Of a stretch of 41,148 bases of DNA, positions 30,076-40,473 are shown piece by piece. The notes under the pieces were generated by a model, which saw only the letters and a program-made list of their open reading frames with translations, did not search any database and was not told the origin of the DNA. Source of the DNA: Thioalkalivibrio sp. (GTDB lineage Bacteria > Pseudomonadota > Gammaproteobacteria > Ectothiorhodospirales > Ectothiorhodospiraceae); contig JAABTX010000019.1 in NCBI GenBank assembly GCA_011389655.1, positions 1-41,148 on the forward strand, given 5' to 3'. The translations under genes and the position numbers were made by a program. Within the stretch, counting starts at the first letter, position 1; each line of letters opens with the position of its first letter.

Positions 30076-32247
30076 ATGCGTCACTCACTGCTGACCGATC
30101 AGAAGCTGCAGGGGATGGAACGCTCGGCCCTGGTCCGGCACTTCGCCGGCACGGACGCCCCCGACCTTCAGCTGACTGCGGCCATTACCCACGCACTGGA
30201 TTCGGTCGACGAGTCCGGGCTGCAGACCCATCCGCTCGACGTCGCCGAAATCCTGCGCGGACTGAACGTCGACCGCCAGACCCTGATCGCCACGCTGCTG
30301 ATCCCGGCGGTCTTTGCCCGTCGCCTTACCCACGAACAGATGACCCAGCAGTTCGGCGAGGTCGTCACGCGCCTGACCGAGAACGTCAGCGAGCTCGTCC
30401 GGCGGCGTTTCGAGGCCCCGACCGGGCGCCCGGAGCAGGCGGAGCGGCTGCGGCGCATGCTGCTGGCGATGGTGGACGACGTCCGCGCCGTGCTGATCAA
30501 GCTGGCGTTCCGACTGCAGAACCTGCGCCTTGCGGCAAAACGGAACGAGCCCGATGCGGCCCTGCTGGCCCAGGAGACGCTCGACGTGCTTGCACCGCTC
30601 GCGAACCGTCTCGGGATCGGCTCCCTGAAGTGGGAAATGGAGGACCTCTCGCTGCGCATCCTCGAGCCGGAGGCCTACCGGGAGATCGCCAACGGTCTCG
30701 ACGCCAACCGGCGTGCCCGCGAGGCCTATGTCGACACCTTCACGCGCGATCTGCAGAAGGCCCTGGAGGCCGGGGGAGTGAAGGCGCGGGTCTATGGACG
30801 CCCGAAGCACATCTACAGCATCTGGCGCAAGATGCAGAAGAAACAGGTCGTACTGGAGGAGCTGACGGATCTCCGCGCGACCCGGGTAATCGTTGACGAC
30901 CTCTCGGCCTGCTATACCGTGCTTGGCATCGTCCACAACCACTGGCCGCACCTGCCGCGCGAATTCGACGACTACATCGCCAACCCCAAGGACAACGGGT
31001 ATCAGTCGCTGCACACCGCGGTGATCGGTCCGGAGGGCAAGGTGGTCGAGGTCCAGATCCGGACCCGGACGATGCATGAGTTCGCGGAACTCGGGGTGGC
31101 CGCGCACTGGCGCTACAAGGAGGGCGGGCGCGAGGACCAGGCGCTGAACCGCGCGATTGCCTCCCTGCGGCAGCTTCTGGAGTCCGGCGAGGACGATCAG
31201 AACCTGCTCGAGGAGTTCCAGAGCGAGGTACTGCACCAGCGGGTCTTCGTGCTTACGCCCCGCGGCGAGGTGCTGGACCTGCCCGCGGGCGCGACGCCGC
31301 TGGACTTCGCCTATGGCGTGCACACGGAGGTCGGTCACCGATGCCGTGGCGCGAAGGTGGACGGCCGGATCGTGCCTCTGACCTACCGTCTGCGATCCGG
31401 GCAGCGGGTGGAGATCCTGACCACCCGCGAAGGCGGTCCGAGCCGCGACTGGCTGAACCCGAGCCTGGGCTACCTGCAGACCACCCGCGGGCGCAACAAG
31501 GTGCGCAGCTGGTTCCGGCAGCAGAACCAGGAAGAACACCTCGCGAACGGGCGCGGTCTGCTGGACCGGGAGTGCCAGAGGCTCGGCGTGAGCCAGTTGG
31601 ACCAGGAGGATCTGGCCACCCGGCTGGGTTACCGCCGCCCCGCTGACATGCTGATTGCGCTGGGCGCGGGAGATCTCACCACGGCGCAGGTCGCCCAGAA
31701 GCTGCAGGTCGATGCGGCGATACCGATCCCGGCGCTGCGGCCGCGGCGCCGCCCCGTGCGCGACGGGAAGCCCGCCGGTGGCGGCGACATTCACATCCGC
31801 GGCGTCGGCGGGCTGCTGACCAGCCTTGCCAACTGCTGCAACCCCGTGCCGGGCGACCCGATCATCGGCTTCATCACCCGCGGGAAGGGCGTCTCGGTAC
31901 ATCGCCGGGACTGCGTGAACATTCTGCGGTTGCCGGAGGAGAAGCGTCCCCGGCTGATCCCGGTGAGCTGGGGCGAGGAGGCCCCGACCCAGGCAGTGGA
32001 CATGATCGTGGAGGCCCAGGACCGGCCCGGCCTGCTACGGGACATCAGCAATGTCTTCGCGAATGCGAACGTGAACCTGCTGGCGGTTCAGACCCGAACC
32101 CACCCGGTGGACCGTTCCGTGCACATGGAACTGACCGCGGAGGTGGAGGGCCTGAGCCAGCTCAGCGGGCTGTTCGACCGCATCCAGGCCCTGCCCAACG
32201 TGTACAGCGTCCGGCGCCGCTCGACCGTGGACCGGGCCCGGCGATGA
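30076..32247 (+). CDS. relA: GTP pyrophosphokinase RelA
   Basis: 723-aa ribosome-associated (p)ppGpp synthetase of the stringent response. Domains: an inactive HD-like domain (about 20-200) in which the HDxxED catalytic motif of SpoT is absent; synthetase (about 235-350) with RVYGRPKHIYSIWRKM and, from residue 296, EFDDYIANPKDNGYQSLH; TGS (about 388-450); a Cys-rich zinc-finger domain (SLANCCNPVPGD ... VSVHRRDC near 580-620); and a C-terminal ACT domain from about 642. The acidic E-x-D-D motif marks a monofunctional synthetase, as opposed to R-x-K-D in bifunctional enzymes. ATG at 30076; an ATG at 30115 is an alternative if the mRNA is not leaderless. Confidence 0.95.
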   Translation: MRHSLLTDQKLQGMERSALVRHFAGTDAPDLQLTAAITHALDSVDESGLQTHPLDVAEILRGLNVDRQTLIATLLIPAVFARRLTHEQMTQQFGEVVTRLTENVSELVRRRFEAPTGRPEQAERLRRMLLAMVDDVRAVLIKLAFRLQNLRLAAKRNEPDAALLAQETLDVLAPLANRLGIGSLKWEMEDLSLRILEPEAYREIANGLDANRRAREAYVDTFTRDLQKALEAGGVKARVYGRPKHIYSIWRKMQKKQVVLEELTDLRATRVIVDDLSACYTVLGIVHNHWPHLPREFDDYIANPKDNGYQSLHTAVIGPEGKVVEVQIRTRTMHEFAELGVAAHWRYKEGGREDQALNRAIASLRQLLESGEDDQNLLEEFQSEVLHQRVFVLTPRGEVLDLPAGATPLDFAYGVHTEVGHRCRGAKVDGRIVPLTYRLRSGQRVEILTTREGGPSRDWLNPSLGYLQTTRGRNKVRSWFRQQNQEEHLANGRGLLDRECQRLGVSQLDQEDLATRLGYRRPADMLIALGAGDLTTAQVAQKLQVDAAIPIPALRPRRRPVRDGKPAGGGDIHIRGVGGLLTSLANCCNPVPGDPIIGFITRGKGVSVHRRDCVNILRLPEEKRPRLIPVSWGEEAPTQAVDMIVEAQDRPGLLRDISNVFANANVNLLAVQTRTHPVDRSVHMELTAEVEGLSQLSGLFDRIQALPNVYSVRRRSTVDRARR

Positions 32248-33441: not shown

Positions 33442-35420
33442 GGCAGCTTCTCCAGCAGACGTTCGTTACGACCCCGGTACTTCTCCGGCAACAGGGAGGC
33501 ATATTCCATCAATGCCTCCTGGCGCCGGAAGCGATCCGCAGCGCCCAGCCCGTCAACGATCTGCTCGACCTCGGCCAGCCGGGTCTCGGTGTCCGGATGA
33601 TCCACGTGGTTGCGCGTGCCGTAGCCGCGGAACCCGGGGGGCAGTTCCATCGCGTTCACGTCGATGTCCTCGTAGCCGATGGATGGCAGATCGTCGGCCT
33701 CGTCCGCCCAGGTGGCGAGCGTGCGCTTCAGCCAGTCGCGGTCGTTGCGCTGCGGGAAGTCCTCGCGGAAATGGGCACCGCGGCTCTCGGTCCGCAACAG
33801 CGCCCCCTGCGCGACGCACAGCGCGATCTTGAGCATCTTCTGCACGCGGTAGGCGGTCACCAGTTCCGGGTTGGCACCTCGCGTCCCGGTCCGGACCGCG
33901 ATGTTCCGGCTGCGCACCAGGAGTTCGCGCAGCTCGCTGACCGCACTCTCCAGCTCCTCTCCGGTACGGAAGATGCCGACCTTGTCCATCATCACGGCCT
34001 CCATCCGGTCGCGCAGCTCGGTGGCGCTCTCTCCTTCGCCGCGGCCGAGCAGTTCGTCCAGCCGCCGTTGCTCGCGCTCGATGAAGTGGCGCACCAGATC
34101 CGACCCCACGCTCACTGCTCCCGCCTCCGACTCGCAGAAGTCCGCGATGTACTCGGCGACGAGCATCCCCGCCACGACGGTCTCGGCCACGGAATTGCCG
34201 CCGAGGCGATTGAAGCCGTGCAGGTCCCAGCAGGCGGCCTCGCCGCAGGAGAACAGGCCCTTCAGGGTCGGGCTCTGGCCGGTGTGATCGGTCCGGATGC
34301 CCCCCATCGAGTAGTGCTGGGTCGGCCGCACCGGAATCCACTCGGTCACCGGGTCGATGCCGAGGAAGTACTCGCAGATGTCCTTCACCTCGCGCAGGTT
34401 CTTCTCGATGTGCGCGCGGCCCAGCCCGGTGATGTCCAGCCACAGGTGCTCGCCGTAACGGGAGGGCACGCCCTTTCCCTTGCGCATGTGCTCGGTCATC
34501 CGCCGGGACACCACGTCGCGCGAAGCGAGTTCCTTCTTCTCGGGCTCGTAGTCGGGCATGAAGCGGTGGCCATCGACGTCGCGCAGCACACCGCCGTCGC
34601 CCCGGCAGCCCTCGGTGGTCAGGATGCCCGCGGTAATGATCGCGGTCGGGTGAAACTGCACGGCCTCCATGTTCCCAAGCGGCGCGACGCCGGTCTCCAG
34701 CGCCAGTGCGATCCCGGTTCCCTCGCAGATGATCGCATTGGTGGAGACCTTGTAGATGCGGCCATAGCCACCGGTCGCGATCGTCGTGGCCCGGGCCAGG
34801 TAGGCCGTGAGCTCACCCGTGATCAGGTCCCGCACCACCGCCCCGTGACAGCGCCCGCCATCGTGGATCAGGGACAGGGCCTCCTGCCGCTCCAGCACCG
34901 GTATCCCGTGGGCGATGGCCTGGTCGCCGAGGGCATAGAGCATGGTGTGCCCGGTCCCGTCCGAGGTGTAGCAGGTGCGCCACTTCTTGGTGCCGCCGAA
35001 GTCCCGCGCGGTAATCAGCCCGTGGGCATCGTCGTTCTCGGTGATGGTGATCTTCTGCGCATTCACCACGGACTCGCGGTCGCCCCGCGCCACGCGGCTC
35101 CAGGGCACGCCCCACGCCGCGAGCTCACGAACCGCCTTCGGCGCGGTATTCACGAACATGCGCACGACGCGCTGGTCCGCGCCCCAGTCGCTGCCACGCA
35201 CCGTGTCCTCGAAGTGCACGTCCTCGTTGTCACCCGCCCCCATCGCGCTGTTGCCGAGGCTGGCCTGCATACCGCCCTGGGCCGCGGCCGAGTGCGACCG
35301 CTTCGCGGGAACGAGACTCAGGATCAGCGCATCGAGCCCGCGCCGCTTCACGCCAACGGCGACGCGCAATCCCGCGAGACCGCCGCCGATCACCAGCACG
35401 TCCGTGTAGACGACCTTCAT
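33438..35420 (-). CDS. frdA: Fumarate reductase / succinate dehydrogenase flavoprotein subunit
   Basis: 660-aa FAD protein catalysing fumarate/succinate interconversion. The dinucleotide motif [14 protein letters not shown] is at the N terminus; [14 protein letters not shown] contains the His that carries covalent FAD in this family. The active-site blocks are visible: [29 protein letters not shown] and the C-terminal [19 protein letters not shown] at 35420 overlaps the frdC stop. Two assignments are possible (fumarate reductase or succinate dehydrogenase), because type-B enzymes run both ways; the FNR-like promoter favours an anaerobic role. Confidence 0.94.
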
Positions 35421-36214
35421 GGCCTCACCCCCATGTCTCCGGCCGGTGGTGTCGATTCCTGCTGCCAGGTGGGTACGTAACGCTCCCCGACCTGGTCCCG
35501 ATGTTCGATTCCGATCTTCATGTAGGCCCCGAGCGAGGTGAATCCCAGCAGCAGGAAGAACACGATCAAGCCGCGCATCAGCCACTTCAGCCGTCGCCGT
35601 CCAACCGCCGGGTCGCGTGCCGGGAGCCAGCCCCATTTTACCGCGACCCGGTAGGACCCCACCGCCGCGTGGACCACCGCGGTCACCAGCAGCAGCACGT
35701 ATAACGGCCACATCCACTCGCTGACCACGCGGTCGGAAGAGGCGTACGGCCCGATATTCGCAGGCTGCGAAATCATCGTGTACAGGTGCACCGACACAAG
35801 GAAGAACAGCGCGAACCCCGTGTAGACCTGCACCCACCACAGGCTGGTGTCCTCGTGGTGCATCAGCTTGTGATGGTCCCGGTAGACCCGGTACTGGCGG
35901 TAGCTGACCGGGATCCTGCGCACCGCGAGGACCGCATGCAGCACGACGACCGCCAGAATGAACAGGGAGAACAGCGTGATGATGATCGGATAGGGCGTTC
36001 CGAAGATGTAATAGCCCTCGAAGAACATCGTCACCCGGTACATTGCGTCCTTGCCCAGCAGGATCGACGCCTCGGCGAAGAGATGCACCCAGAGAAACAG
36101 CGCCAGGAACAGCCCGGACGCACTTTCCAGGAAATCCAGCCGGGCCGGCCAGAACCTGCCACTGCGGCGCTTCGTCAACGCCGCACCAACCGCAAGATCA
36201 CTCGGAATGCCCAT
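35417..36214 (-). CDS. frdC: Fumarate reductase dihaem cytochrome b subunit, Wolinella type
   Basis: 265-aa single membrane anchor with five helices, binding two b haems and the quinol site. It aligns without gaps to Wolinella FrdC (from memory) through residue 186: haem ligands His44, His93, His143 and His182 and the quinol-site Glu66 are at identical numbers, and [12 protein letters not shown] is nearly the same. Position 180, the essential Glu of the Wolinella E-pathway, is Val. This match fixes the start at the ATG at 36214, preceded by AAAGGTGG; a TTG at 36244 is rejected. First gene of frdCAB, both junctions ATGA. Confidence 0.94.
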
Positions 36215-36401: not shown

Positions 36402-37316
36402 TCACACCGTGAAGCGCCCCTCGCGCAGCATCTGGGCGTTCATGATCTCGAGTTCGCGCGCCCCGGACACGACGACCTCCGGATCCGGTACAAAGTCGAG
36501 TTGCGGGTCCAGGCGCTGATAGGGGACCGAGTTCAGGATCACCTTGATCGCGTTCAGCCGGGCCCTGGCCTTGTCGTTGGAACGAATGATGGTCCACGGC
36601 GCCCACGAGGTGTGGGTCTGGCGCAGCATCTCGTATTTCTGGTGCGTGAAATCGTCCCAGCGGTCCTGCGCCTGCACATCGATCTCCGACAGCTTCCACT
36701 GGCGCAGCGGATCGGTCTTGCGGCGTTCGAAACGCCGGGCCTGCTCATCCTTGGTCACGCTGAAGTAGAGCTTGATCAGGATCGTGCCCTGGCGCACGAG
36801 GTCCTTCTCGAAGCCGACCACGCCGTGCATGAAGTTCTCGTACTCCTCGTCGGTACAGAACCCGAAGACCGGCTCGACCATCGAGCGGTTGTACCAGCTG
36901 CGGTCGAACAGCACCTGTTCCCCCCCGTGCGGAAACTGCTCCACGTAGCGCTGAAAGAACCACTGCGACCGCTGGTGCTCGGTGGGTTTGCCGAGCGCGA
37001 CGACCCGGTAGTGCTTCTCGTTCATGTAGCGCGTGATCCGCCGGATGGTGCCCCCCTTGCCGGCGGCATCGCGACCCTCGAACAGGATGATCATCCGCTG
37101 CTGGGTCTCTTCCAGCTGCTTCTGCATCCGGATGAGTTCCGCCTGGTACGGCTTGAGCGCCTGCTCGTGCCGCCTGCGCGCGACCGCGCTGCGCGTCTCG
37201 CGCTTCAGGTCGGCCAGGGATTTCCGAAGCTCGGCGCGTTCCTGCAGCAGCTCATCGACCGATTCCGGTGGCGTGTCCTGGTCCGCCCCACCCCGGTCGA
37301 TTGGCTTGTCCATCAT
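36402..37316 (-). CDS. ppk2: Polyphosphate kinase 2 (PPK2 family)
   Basis: 304-aa kinase using polyphosphate to phosphorylate nucleotides (or the reverse). Walker A EGRDAAGKGGTIRRIT near residue 81, the Walker B-like FDRSWYNRSMVEPVFGFC, and the lid RRKTDPLRQWKLSEID are the PPK2 signatures. A charged coiled-coil precedes the kinase core (about 15-70). One PPK2 domain only; its length fits class I, which mainly phosphorylates NDPs, but the class should be confirmed. ATG at 37316, directly followed by a second ATG, with AGGGGG upstream; a frame to 37394 is rejected because it crosses the promoter. Confidence 0.93.
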   Translation of the reverse strand: MMDKPIDRGGADQDTPPESVDELLQERAELRKSLADLKRETRSAVARRRHEQALKPYQAELIRMQKQLEETQQRMIILFEGRDAAGKGGTIRRITRYMNEKHYRVVALGKPTEHQRSQWFFQRYVEQFPHGGEQVLFDRSWYNRSMVEPVFGFCTDEEYENFMHGVVGFEKDLVRQGTILIKLYFSVTKDEQARRFERRKTDPLRQWKLSEIDVQAQDRWDDFTHQKYEMLRQTHTSWAPWTIIRSNDKARARLNAIKVILNSVPYQRLDPQLDFVPDPEVVVSGARELEIMNAQMLREGRFTV

Positions 37317-37347
37317 GTCTGCCCCCTTGGATTCGTATGATCCCGGC

Positions 37348-37353
37348 AGTATA
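37348..37353 (-). promoter_or_regulatory. -10 box upstream of PPK2
   Basis: TATACT on the minus strand, about 32 bp before the start codon. The -35 region is weak (GATTCA at a 17-18 bp spacing). The 144-bp gap from the phosphoribosyltransferase gene supports a separate promoter. Confidence 0.45.
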
Positions 37354-37460
37354 CCCGGTCCGTAACCATGAATCGTGGGGGCGCCGCAGGCCATCCGTGG
37401 CTCGTCGCCCGGCAGAATTTCCTGCTTGGTGCCGTCCGCAGATCATCACGACCATTCCGG

Positions 37461-38087
37461 CTACGGGTCGTCGACCGCCAGACCGCCGTAGCGGATCACG
37501 CGCTCGAGCTGGCCCGGGTCCAGGACCAGCTCGTGGCGTTCCCGCAGTGCGTCGTGAATGGCCTGCCGGGACTTGGGAATCGGGTCCATGTCCCGGATGA
37601 ACTGTCCCACGTCCTCCACCACGGCCCAGGGATACAACACCCAGCGCCACTCCCGCATCATCTCGGCCTTGAAGTCGGCGCGACGGATGGTGGTGGATTT
37701 TTCGTGGAGAACGGCACTGTGCAGCTCGGCGGGCGCCTGGTCACCCAGATAGGCAAGGGCCGCCTGCAGTGTATCACCGCTGTCGTTGACATCGTCCACC
37801 AGTAGCACCCGCCGACCGTCGATGTCTCCACCGAGCGGGTATTCCACTGTCACCCCCCCGGCAGACTGCGCACCGGCCTCGTAGTGGCCGATCTGGATGC
37901 TCAGCAGTCGCGAGATATCCAGAAAGTCGCAGAGAAACCGTGCGGGCATGAAGCCACCCCGCGCAATGGCCACCACCGTGTCCACTTCCACATCCGCACC
38001 GCGCAGGGCCCGCGCCACCCGATCGCAGGCCTCTACCACCTCGTCCAGGCCGATGAGCCGCACCGGCATCGTGGACGTGTCAGCCAC
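37461..38087 (-). CDS. Phosphoribosyltransferase family protein
   Basis: 208-aa type I PRTase. The PRPP loop RRVLLVDDVNDSGDTLQAAL is at about residues 92-108 and the pyrophosphate loop in VVAIARGGFMPARFL at about 39-53. The sequence resembles the Gpt/hypoxanthine group, which attaches PRPP to a purine base, but the base-specificity residues cannot be read with confidence. The start is a GTG at 38087, overlapping nicotinamidase by 8 bp and preceded by GGAGGTG; an ATG at 38069 is an alternative. Co-transcription with pncA suggests nucleobase or NAD salvage. Confidence 0.85.
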   Translation of the reverse strand: MADTSTMPVRLIGLDEVVEACDRVARALRGADVEVDTVVAIARGGFMPARFLCDFLDISRLLSIQIGHYEAGAQSAGGVTVEYPLGGDIDGRRVLLVDDVNDSGDTLQAALAYLGDQAPAELHSAVLHEKSTTIRRADFKAEMMREWRWVLYPWAVVEDVGQFIRDMDPIPKSRQAIHDALRERHELVLDPGQLERVIRYGGLAVDDP

Positions 38088-38649
38088 CGGTCACCACCTC
38101 CACCCCGGCCTCGCGCATTCGCTCGAGCGCCTTGCGTCCGCCTTCGGCGCTGACCGGGCGTGTTCCCCGTGCGAACAGCATGACCGCGAAGCCTTCCTGC
38201 CTTGCGTCCAGCGCGGTGGCCTCCACGCAGACGTCCTGAGCCAGCCCCGCGATCCAGATGCGCGAGACGCCACGGCGGCGCAGCTCATCGGCGAGCCCGG
38301 TCTGGTCGAACGCGGAGTTCTGATCCTGATCGAAGCGTACGCCCTTGGTCACCTTGACCGTATCCGTGGGCAGCCGGAGCCGCGGGTGGAACGCGGCCCC
38401 GTCCGTGTCCTGTACACAGTGAGGCGGCCATTCGCCACCCTGCGCCTTGAAGCTGATATGTTCCTGCGGATGCCAGTCCCGCGACGCGAACACGGGAATG
38501 CCAGCGGCCTGTGCCCCTTCGATCCAGGGGTTCACGGCCTCCACCACCTCGTCACCACCCTCAATGGGCAACTCGCCACCCGGACAGAAATCGTTCTGCA
38601 GGTCGATGAGCATCAGGGCATCGCCGTTCTGGAATTCCGGGGCTGTCAT
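38080..38649 (-). CDS. pncA: Nicotinamidase
   Basis: 189-aa cysteine hydrolase converting nicotinamide to nicotinate for NAD salvage. The catalytic triad is readable as Asp16 (LIDLQNDFCPGG), Lys102 (VTKGVRFDQD) and Cys141 (AQDVCVEATALDA). The metal site is in SRDWHPQEHISF. ATG at 38649 with GAGGAG upstream. Its product is the substrate of the pncB-type enzyme encoded just upstream. The 127-bp gap to that gene holds a perfect palindrome. Confidence 0.95.
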   Translation of the reverse strand: MTAPEFQNGDALMLIDLQNDFCPGGELPIEGGDEVVEAVNPWIEGAQAAGIPVFASRDWHPQEHISFKAQGGEWPPHCVQDTDGAAFHPRLRLPTDTVKVTKGVRFDQDQNSAFDQTGLADELRRRGVSRIWIAGLAQDVCVEATALDARQEGFAVMLFARGTRPVSAEGGRKALERMREAGVEVVTGG

Positions 38650-38713
38650 GGCTCTCCTCCTTCGTCAATGTGAAAGTCGCGCACCACCGCCCTACTGTCC
38701 CGCTTGCAGGCCA

Positions 38714-38749
38714 GCACCGGGGACAGATTTGCCGATCTGTCCCCGGTGC
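38714..38749. repeat. GGGGACAG palindrome between pncB and pncA
   Basis: Perfect 15-bp arms: GCACCGGGGACAGAT (38714-38728) and ATCTGTCCCCGGTGC (38735-38749) around TTGCCG. Further CTGTCCCCC copies follow at 38756-38764. GGGGACAGAT-type palindromes recur in many gammaproteobacterial genomes. It could also fold as a hairpin in the pncB-pncA mRNA. Confidence 0.75.
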
Positions 38750-38776
38750 GCCGCTCTGTCCCCCGTCCCCCGTCTC

Positions 38777-40153
38777 TCATCCCTCGCCCGCGACGGCCTC
38801 GCGGACCGCGCGCTGATGCTCGGCCAGGGCGTCACTCACGCGCACAGGGTACGGGGGTTCAGCTGTCGCGATTGCACGGACCGCCTGTGGCAATCCTGCC
38901 ACCGAGGCGGCCGCATGCTCGCGCAGGCGGTTGAGGTCGCGCTCGTGGCTGTTCAGGCGTTGGCCCTGTTCCATGACCTTTGCAAGCTGCGGTTCGCCCG
39001 GTCCGTCCTCGTCATGGCGTCCGATCACGTCGCCCGTGAAGATGCCGTCGCGCTGTTCGCGAAACACCTGCTTGCGCCCGGGCAGGATGGGCTTGCCGGA
39101 TGAGAGCTTCAACCGCCCCTGCCCCGCGTACTCCGCGAGCTTGTAGGCGATATCGAGATCGGGAGCGTCACTGGAAACCCCCATGCTCGTGCCCACACCG
39201 AAACCATCGATCGGGGCGCCCGCCGAGACCAGGCGCTGAATCTCGTGTTCATCCAGGCCGCCACTGGCGAAGACCTCGACGCCGTCGAGGCCGGCGGAAT
39301 CCAGGATGCGCCGGGCCTCCCGGGACAGCGCGTCCAGATCGCCGGAGTCCAGGCGCACCGCGCCGACCCGGAACTGCTCACCGAGTTGGTCCCGCAGGTC
39401 CGCCACCCGCCGGACCCCCTCCAGCGTGTCGTAGGTATCGACCAGCAGCACGGTGTCGGGATACAGGCGGGTAAAGGCCTCGAAGGCCTCGTACTCCGTG
39501 CCATGGGCCTGGATGTAGCTGTGTGCCATGGTGCCGCGCACCGGAACCCCGTAGATCCGCCCCGCCAGCACGTTGGAGGTTCCCGCAACGCCGGCGATAT
39601 GGAAGGCCCGGGCACCCTTGATCGCGGCGTCCAGGCCGTGGATGCGTCGGGCACCGAAGTCGAGGACCGGACGCCCCGCCGCCGCGCTCACCAGCCGCGC
39701 GGCCTTCGTGGCCAGAACGGTCTGCAGGTGGATCTGGTTCATCACCAGGGTCTCGACGAGTTGCGCCTCCGGCAGCGGCGCGACGATCTCGAGGATCGAC
39801 TCGTTGGCGAACACCGGTGTGCCCTCCTTCACCGCGTACACGTCACCGGTGAATCGCATATCCGCGAGCCAGCCCAGGAACCGGTCGGAGAAGAGACCCA
39901 GTGATGCCAGATAATCGAGATCCCTCTGCTCGAAGCGAAGATCCTCCAACTGGCCGAGCAGCGAATCGAGACCGCAGGCCAGCAGGTAGTTGCGCCCCGG
40001 CGGCACCCTGCGCACGAAGAGGCTGAACACGGCTGATTCGTGCATGTCCTCCTCCACGTAGGCCTGGAGCATCGTGAGTTCGTAGAGGTCGGTGAACAGG
40101 GCCAGCTCCTGATCACAGGCCGTGACCGGTGCCTCTCGATCTGCGCGGTTCAT
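38777..40153 (-). CDS. pncB: Nicotinate phosphoribosyltransferase
   Basis: 458-aa type II PRTase joining nicotinate and PRPP to NaMN, the committed step of the Preiss-Handler route. LALFTDLYELTMLQAY at the N terminus, DFGARRIHGLDAAIKGAR, AGTSNVLAG, VRGTMAHSYIQAHG (the His here is the autophosphorylation site in the family), VGAVRLDSGDLDAL and FASGGLDEHEI are all present. The form resembles the actinobacterial/archaeal type more than E. coli PncB. ATG at 40153 with GGAGGT eight bases upstream; the frame extends to 40300 without support. Confidence 0.94.
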   Translation of the reverse strand: MNRADREAPVTACDQELALFTDLYELTMLQAYVEEDMHESAVFSLFVRRVPPGRNYLLACGLDSLLGQLEDLRFEQRDLDYLASLGLFSDRFLGWLADMRFTGDVYAVKEGTPVFANESILEIVAPLPEAQLVETLVMNQIHLQTVLATKAARLVSAAAGRPVLDFGARRIHGLDAAIKGARAFHIAGVAGTSNVLAGRIYGVPVRGTMAHSYIQAHGTEYEAFEAFTRLYPDTVLLVDTYDTLEGVRRVADLRDQLGEQFRVGAVRLDSGDLDALSREARRILDSAGLDGVEVFASGGLDEHEIQRLVSAGAPIDGFGVGTSMGVSSDAPDLDIAYKLAEYAGQGRLKLSSGKPILPGRKQVFREQRDGIFTGDVIGRHDEDGPGEPQLAKVMEQGQRLNSHERDLNRLREHAAASVAGLPQAVRAIATAEPPYPVRVSDALAEHQRAVREAVAGEG

Positions 40154-40473
40154 GCGTTCATACCTCCGTGGCAACCATGAATGGCCGGTCATTCGACCGA
40201 CGACGGTCCGCCTCCGGGCGCCCTGCGGTGCGCACCCGCCCTTCCGGGCGGCGACAGCGAACGCGGAACCACGATCCGAGGCTGCAGGGAATCCCGACAC
40301 CGGCGGCTGCAGAGCGCGTGGCAGTGACGATCGACAAGATCAAGCCCTCGATTGCGGCCCTCGCGCAGACGGCGGCATCGCCGTATCGGATGCTCGCGGC
40401 ATCCCTGAATCATAGGCAACCGGGCTCGCGGCTTGTTCCTAGATGTCCCCACCGGGAAAGATGCCTGCAATGT
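40154..40473. other. Intergenic region upstream of pncB
   Basis: 320 bp between the ATP-grasp gene and pncB. A TATGAT hexamer on the minus strand near 40408-40413 could be a -10, with no good -35. Small GC dyads (CGCCCTT...GGGCG) occur near 40228-40242. Open frames exist on both strands but none looks like a protein I know; I call no gene. Confidence 0.5.

Follow-up and report, generated by a model that had tools for sequence, protein, structure and literature searches.

The dihaem quinol:fumarate reductase encoded in the window (the whole stretch of 41,148 nucleotides of Thioalkalivibrio sp. DNA that was analysed) has Val in its cytochrome b subunit FrdC at the place of Glu180, the E-pathway residue of the Wolinella succinogenes enzyme, and carries a Glu at position 48, close to the haem ligand His44. 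A comparison of 94 aligned FrdC rows revealed that the two acids replace each other: 70 rows combine Val48 with Glu180, 21 combine Glu48 with Val or Ile at 180, three have neither acid and none has both. It is proposed, with a probability of slightly below one half, that the redox-linked carboxylate has been transferred from helix V to helix I, close to the distal-haem ligand His44, and that compensation would have been re-routed and not simply lost. To our knowledge, most evidence for the E-pathway comes from Glu180 mutants of a single enzyme. A direct test of the proton-transfer model would be provided by FrdC proteins that naturally lack Glu180, keep their haem ligands, Glu66 and operons intact and have a new Glu at one site, and the exchange could help to tell electroneutral from electrogenic forms of dihaem complex II by sequence.

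Gene assignment of the frdCAB locus

The three genes of the locus follow each other in the order frdC, frdA, frdB (Table 1). Reading of the junctions in the sequence showed that the start of frdA overlaps the stop of frdC and the start of frdB overlaps the stop of frdA, in both cases as ATGA. All three products scored above the NCBIfam cut-offs for the Wolinella-type dihaem quinol:fumarate reductase, whereas FrdC reached 26.6 bits against the b558-type succinate dehydrogenase cytochrome family TIGR02046, below the cut-off of 96. The SdhD anchor family TIGR02968 had no match in the window, and the single match in the same genome lies on contig C46. An AlphaFold model of FrdC (pLDDT 89.6) was similar to the Wolinella chain 2bs4_C (Z 28.9, rmsd 4.4 over 244 residues) and to chain 5xmj_C of Desulfovibrio gigas (Z 22.0, rmsd 3.0 over 208 residues). 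Judged by family scores, haem His residues, Glu66 and fold, the locus is assigned as a dihaem quinol:fumarate reductase operon, frdCAB.

Table 1. Genes of the frdCAB locus and FrdC codons of interest, with their positions in the window
Feature	Position	Strand	Remarks
frdC, dihaem cytochrome b subunit, 265 aa	35417..36214	minus	ATG at 36214, stop 35417-35419; NF010072 324.8 bits (cut-off 187)
frdA, flavoprotein subunit, 660 aa	33438..35420	minus	NF006383 1142.5 bits (cut-off 663)
frdB, iron-sulfur subunit, 257 aa	32668..33441	minus	NF010071 415.6 bits (cut-off 264)
FrdC codon 48, GAG, Glu, helix I, four residues past haem ligand His44	36071..36073	minus	Val48 in Wolinella and in all 70 Glu180 rows
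FrdC codon 66, Glu, quinol-site residue kept	36017..36019	minus	Glu66 in 94/94 rows
FrdC codon 180, GTG, Val (= Glu180 of the Wolinella E-pathway)	35675..35677	minus	Val in 12/12 FrdC-bearing Thioalkalivibrio genomes
FrdC codon 213, Met, helix VI	35576..35578	minus	Lys in 68/70 Glu180 rows
FrdC codon 217, Ile, helix VI	35564..35566	minus	Thr in 65/70 Glu180 rows

Key residues of FrdC

The FrdC protein could be aligned without gaps to Wolinella FrdC (2bs2_C) over residues 13-241 (E 1.6e-69, phmmer against PDB chains), which is farther than the residue 186 named in the initial annotation, and the Wolinella residues given there were correct at the cited positions. As that annotation had also claimed, the four haem ligands (His44, His93, His143 and His182) and Glu66 are matched in the alignment and by their codons, and Val lies opposite Wolinella Glu180 with no gap. 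The four haem His residues are common to all 94 aligned rows. The agreement of all 12 FrdC-bearing Thioalkalivibrio genomes on Val180 means that an annotation, sequencing or alignment slip at this residue can be rejected. Because Glu180 is present in 70 of the 94 aligned relatives, the departure from it, as seen in this alignment, is real and lineage-specific.

Besides the gapless FrdC match, the four haem ligands and Glu66, the window enzyme and the Wolinella enzyme (2bs2, 1qlb) have the same subunit families and membrane-helix pattern, whereas Wolinella combines Glu180, Lys213 and Ser217 with Val48, and the window protein combines Val180, Met213 and Ile217 with Glu48. A hydrophobic residue at 180 is shared with the Wolinella variant E180I (2bs4); however, this variant and E180Q (2bs3) both retain Val48 and Lys213. 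The E180I mutant of Wolinella has reportedly lost its activity. According to the accessible text of PMC6175931, Glu180 is the central proton carrier of the Wolinella E-pathway, with His44 and a propionate of haem bD upstream, and growth on fumarate was stopped by Gln replacements of Glu66 and Glu180, as Guan et al. report there. The D. gigas enzyme (5xmj) has the same dihaem fold and differs in possessing Glu164 (equivalent to 180), Glu193 and a shorter loop, and its His38 (equivalent to His44) has been proposed as the donor to Glu164 and then Glu193 (same source, accessible part). In a weak transitive alignment, Glu193 corresponds approximately to position 213.

Glu180 has also been used in Desulfovibrio as an argument for a fumarate reductase and not a succinate dehydrogenase role (PMC4287179), and E-pathway residues have been interpreted in Pelotomaculum (PMC10308238), both as given in the accessible parts of these papers. 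The Prevotella bryantii enzyme is similarly devoid of an acid at the Glu180 position; it differs in having Trp170 at that place, and the accessible text describes no replacement of the Glu48 type (PMC10739449). An FrdC without Glu180 is not new as such; its exchange with Glu48 was not found for fumarate reductase in the literature searched, which comprised few subscription papers.

Distribution of Glu48 and Glu180 among FrdC relatives

FrdC loci were collected as the best 80 of 142 relatives, and distant FrdC proteins are therefore under-sampled. The Thioalkalivibrio sample comprised 30 genomes, 23 of them of high quality, with FrdC in 12/30 and in 8/23, respectively; FrdC relatives at 77-94% identity are those of Thioalkalivibrio. 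Of 369 genomes sampled across the class, 10 matched FrdC (own genome included), and so did 10 of 186 relatives of genome G263, eight of these ten belonging to its genus, g103. The 91- and 94-row sets contain the window and L015-L023/L025 as representatives of loci L001-L010 and L013, which were not included themselves. L014, a partial match of another kind, was excluded, as were the partial matches L111 and L112 (both Glu180) and L119 (Ile180, with position 48 outside the match), and three duplicates were dropped (L113 = L072, L115 = L056, L117 = L059). Alignment A2 contained 78 of 81 candidates (without L016, L069 and L074).

In the 21 Glu48 rows, residue 180 is Val in 15 and Ile in six. Lys213 and Thr217, which accompany Glu180 in most of its rows (Table 1), are absent from all 21 Glu48 rows and from the three rows with neither acid. 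At position 213 the Glu48 rows have Met (18), Gln (2) or Thr (1), and at position 217 Ile (17), Met (2), Leu (1) or Ala (1). One locus, L105, retains Glu180 together with Met213 and Ile217, and Glu180 is thus not strictly dependent on Lys213 and Thr217. The Glu48 proteins form two groups. One is Thioalkalivibrio; the second consists of two metagenome-assembled genomes (MAGs) labelled Helicobacteraceae (L024 and L027) and the gammaproteobacterial genus g103, whose family may be guessed to be Beggiatoaceae. Glu48 is kept in 12/12 Thioalkalivibrio rows and in 7/7 rows of g103, the latter down to 66% identity.

Polar residues were compared along positions 22-237: position 48 is the sole gain common to both Glu48 groups, and 180, 213 (Lys) and 217 (Thr) are the sole common losses. 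Ten columns of the second Glu48 group depart from the Glu180 proteins, and nine of them also depart in Thioalkalivibrio, where 30 of 216 columns do so (1.4 expected, p 5e-8; 7/8 with p 2e-6 when 48 and 180 are set aside, both p values assuming independent columns). The nine common columns are 41 and 48 (helix I), 79 (helix II), 177, 180 and 183 (helix V), and 213, 216 and 217 (helix VI); in the model, all but the one at 79 thus belong to helices I, V and VI. Within the same family, Thiorhodospira sibirica (L025/L013) has an FrdC with 53% identity that differs in having Val48, Glu180, Lys213 and Thr217, and it is the sole Glu180 FrdC found in the family (1/17 genomes of other genera).

The three FrdC proteins with neither acid (L106, L109 and L110) indicate that an FrdC need not have a Glu at either of these positions. 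L106 (genome G334) combines Val48 and Val180 with an additional Glu at position 146 of helix IV, three residues past the haem ligand His143, which is possibly another site for the acid. Among 185 genomes of relatives of G334, four matched FrdC, all of them already in the set, and no further FrdC of the Glu146 kind was found. In L109 and L110 (G276 and G373), Pro181 and Asp172 are present. Separately, one TGA was observed within the FrdC match of each of L107, L108 and L119 (G263, G190 and G412). The label of L032, a MAG named Bordetella parapertussis, appears doubtful; its FrdC has Glu180 and clusters with those of Burkholderiales and of other MAGs. A scan of viral contigs found no FrdC relatives.

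Evolutionary origin of the Glu48 proteins

The FrdA+FrdB tree (52 rows and 903 columns, built from the window and 51 of the 93 loci that have FrdA; L106 absent, L024 and L027 with partial FrdA and no FrdB) placed Thioalkalivibrio beside Lysobacterales and Thiorhodospira (92/87 and 85/90, neither of them starred) and the second Glu48 group with Sulfurimonas (100/100), and a branch with 100/99 separates the two Glu48 groups. A single clade of Glu48 operons was rejected by FrdAB (p-AU 5.6e-5, the group having been defined by the trait before the tree). Since L024 and L027 stand among the Glu180-bearing Sulfurimonas in this tree (99/95), a hand count gives three changes on it. In FrdC the same two loci go with g103 (96/84). 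FrdC alone, with four or nine trait columns removed, prefers two Glu48 groups and does not reject one (p-AU 0.33 and 0.44; 57 of 94 rows in the second topology test). On the first FrdC tree, parsimony gave two changes at position 48 and four at position 180. Because one Glu48 origin is not rejected by FrdC, the recurrence may reflect exchange of frdC between operons, and both convergence and such exchange are possible.

These data bear on the explanation that one ancestral frdC type lost Glu180, that Glu48 is incidental, and that this type hitch-hiked from a single origin by exchange of frdC between operons. The single Glu48 clade allowed by FrdC and the conflicting positions of L024 and L027 in the two trees speak for it. 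On the other hand, the FrdC data agree with the position that FrdAB gives to Thioalkalivibrio (a tree constrained in this way was not worse), the window has an overlap between the frdC and frdA genes, and drift would not give the retention of Glu48 found throughout Thioalkalivibrio and g103. This explanation is considered improbable. A broader proposal, put forward tentatively and with clearly less confidence than the relocation itself, is that the carboxylate shifted from Glu180 of helix V to Glu48 of helix I more than once, with two changes on the FrdC tree and three on the FrdAB tree. Coupled proton transfer in dihaem complex II would then need a single carboxylate close to the haems, wherever in the sequence it stands, and the Glu48 enzymes would represent natural second-site revertants of E180I.

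Second complex II and quinone genes of the host

Members of Thioalkalivibrio are haloalkaliphilic sulfur oxidisers. An SdhD-type anchor was found above the cut-off in 27/30 genomes of the genus, including 23/23 of high quality and the own genome, and FrdCAB is therefore a second complex II. This weakens the suggestion of the initial annotation that the enzyme runs mainly as a succinate dehydrogenase, and a reading as a succinate dehydrogenase only was rejected, as the own genome encodes the SdhD-type anchor elsewhere.

MenD and MenB were both above their cut-offs in the same six of 30 Thioalkalivibrio genomes (G008, G010, G012, G014, G017 and G027), UbiA was above the cut-off in 25/30 genomes including the own one, and MqnA/MqnD were found in none of the 30. 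In the own genome (99.63% complete), MenB and MenD were not over the cut-offs and MqnA/MqnD were not found; likewise, no MenB or MenD above the cut-offs was found in G003, G015 and G016, three other high-quality FrdC-bearing genomes of the genus. Among high-quality genomes, Men genes were present in 4/8 with FrdC versus 0/15 without it (Fisher p 0.008, uncorrected for kinship). Related literature exists on Thioalkalivibrio (PMC5744179) and on rhodoquinone (PMC11707229, PMC5953543 and PMC9814641).

The use of another quinone, also suggested in the initial annotation, thus finds some support for the host from the Men, Mqn and Ubi genes of its genome, but fails to explain Val180. If Val180 and Glu48 were an adaptation to ubiquinone or rhodoquinone in hosts that had lost menaquinone, the four FrdC-bearing genomes without MenB and MenD above the cut-offs would fit; however, Glu48 with Val or Ile at 180 also occurs in MenB-positive genomes, namely 7/7 tested genomes of g103 and 4/8 high-quality FrdC-bearing Thioalkalivibrio (with both MenB and MenD). 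The state is found with and without menaquinone genes and is therefore not a quinone switch. Moreover, assembly gaps may hide genes, G003 (96% complete) being without a UbiA match too. Adaptation to another quinone is the least probable of the explanations considered, and menaquinone loss as the cause of Val180 was rejected.

The genomes of the three FrdC proteins with neither acid (G334, G276 and G373) are all without MenB over the cut-off, as would be expected if one acid were needed with menaquinol as donor. MenB over the cut-off is also missing in G190 and in the own genome. The converse fails, because the Men-less G190 has Glu180 and four Men-less Thioalkalivibrio have Glu48.

Proposed proton transfer in the Glu48 enzymes

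The view that the enzyme should not use the E-pathway through residue 180 is supported by the fixation of Val180 in 12 FrdC-bearing genomes and the replacement of Lys213 and Thr217 by Met and Ile; a proton path through this residue is not possible in the window FrdC. In the favoured mechanism, Glu180 in the middle of helix V and Lys213 and Thr217 of helix VI have given way to Val, Met and Ile, and a new Glu48 stands on helix I, one turn from the distal-haem ligand His44 towards the periplasm. Beside the distal haem, Glu48 may take over the redox-linked protonation coupled to haem electron flow, could exchange protons with the distal haem or the quinol site, and would require an onward proton route to the cytoplasm; turnover may stay near electroneutral. 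Position 48 lies four residues past His44 and therefore on the same face of helix I, and residue 48 may face the haems. This orientation goes along with the menaquinone pocket of D. gigas, to which helix 1 contributes residues 36, 37, 40 and 41, without 42 (equivalent to 48), in the accessible text of PMC6175931. By counting along the helices within the helix limits of the model, Glu48 is estimated to be about 9 A nearer the periplasm than position 180. Lancaster reportedly described in 2005 that the high-potential haem is reoxidised more readily with the help of Glu180 deprotonation. In that case, the carboxylate would have shifted from the high-potential haem towards the low-potential one.

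The initial annotation had regarded an electrogenic enzyme as a possible consequence of Val180. In such an enzyme, the E-pathway would be dismantled and electrons would cross uncompensated, Glu48 serving only for proton release at the periplasmic quinol site, and this design would suit a succinate:quinone reductase driven by the membrane potential, like that of Bacillus. The electrogenic reading draws its strongest support from the missing Lys213 and Thr217, with Val, Met and Ile at 180, 213 and 217 of the window protein and a largely non-polar set in the 21 Glu48 rows; Glu48 also lies on the periplasmic side, like the invariant Glu66. Oxidation of menaquinol by fumarate, however, yields too little energy to push charge against the membrane potential, and an SdhD-type anchor is already encoded elsewhere in the host genome. 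In published systems, the dihaem Sdh of Mycobacterium smegmatis, which has no acid at the Glu180 place and keeps the Glu66 equivalent, was read as lacking a canonical E-pathway (accessible part of PMC7447783), whereas the Prevotella enzyme with Trp at the Glu180 place is reported to build no proton-motive force (accessible part of PMC10739449). Given the latter result and the new Glu48, an electrogenic enzyme need not follow from Val180, and it is considered somewhat unlikely.

Of these two mechanisms, re-routed compensation is preferred to the electrogenic one, since every protein that has undergone the exchange retains the acid at 48 and the exchange is found on unrelated operons. Several findings speak against re-routing: Glu48 is offset towards the periplasm by the estimated 9 A; the cytoplasmic half of the old route has become largely hydrophobic, as would rather be expected of a pathway that was lost; the FrdC topology tests leave room for frdC exchange between operons; and three FrdC proteins have no Glu at either position.

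Genes adjoining frdCAB

Upstream of frdC, on the same strand, genes named by eye as PPK2-like kinase, phosphoribosyltransferase, nicotinamidase-like and nicotinate phosphoribosyltransferase-like were observed at 36402-40300, and their order is conserved in L015. At the other end of the locus, a SpoT/RelA-like gene (also named by eye, 30076-32247) is convergent to frdB, and it adjoins frdB also in L016, L020, L021 and L023.
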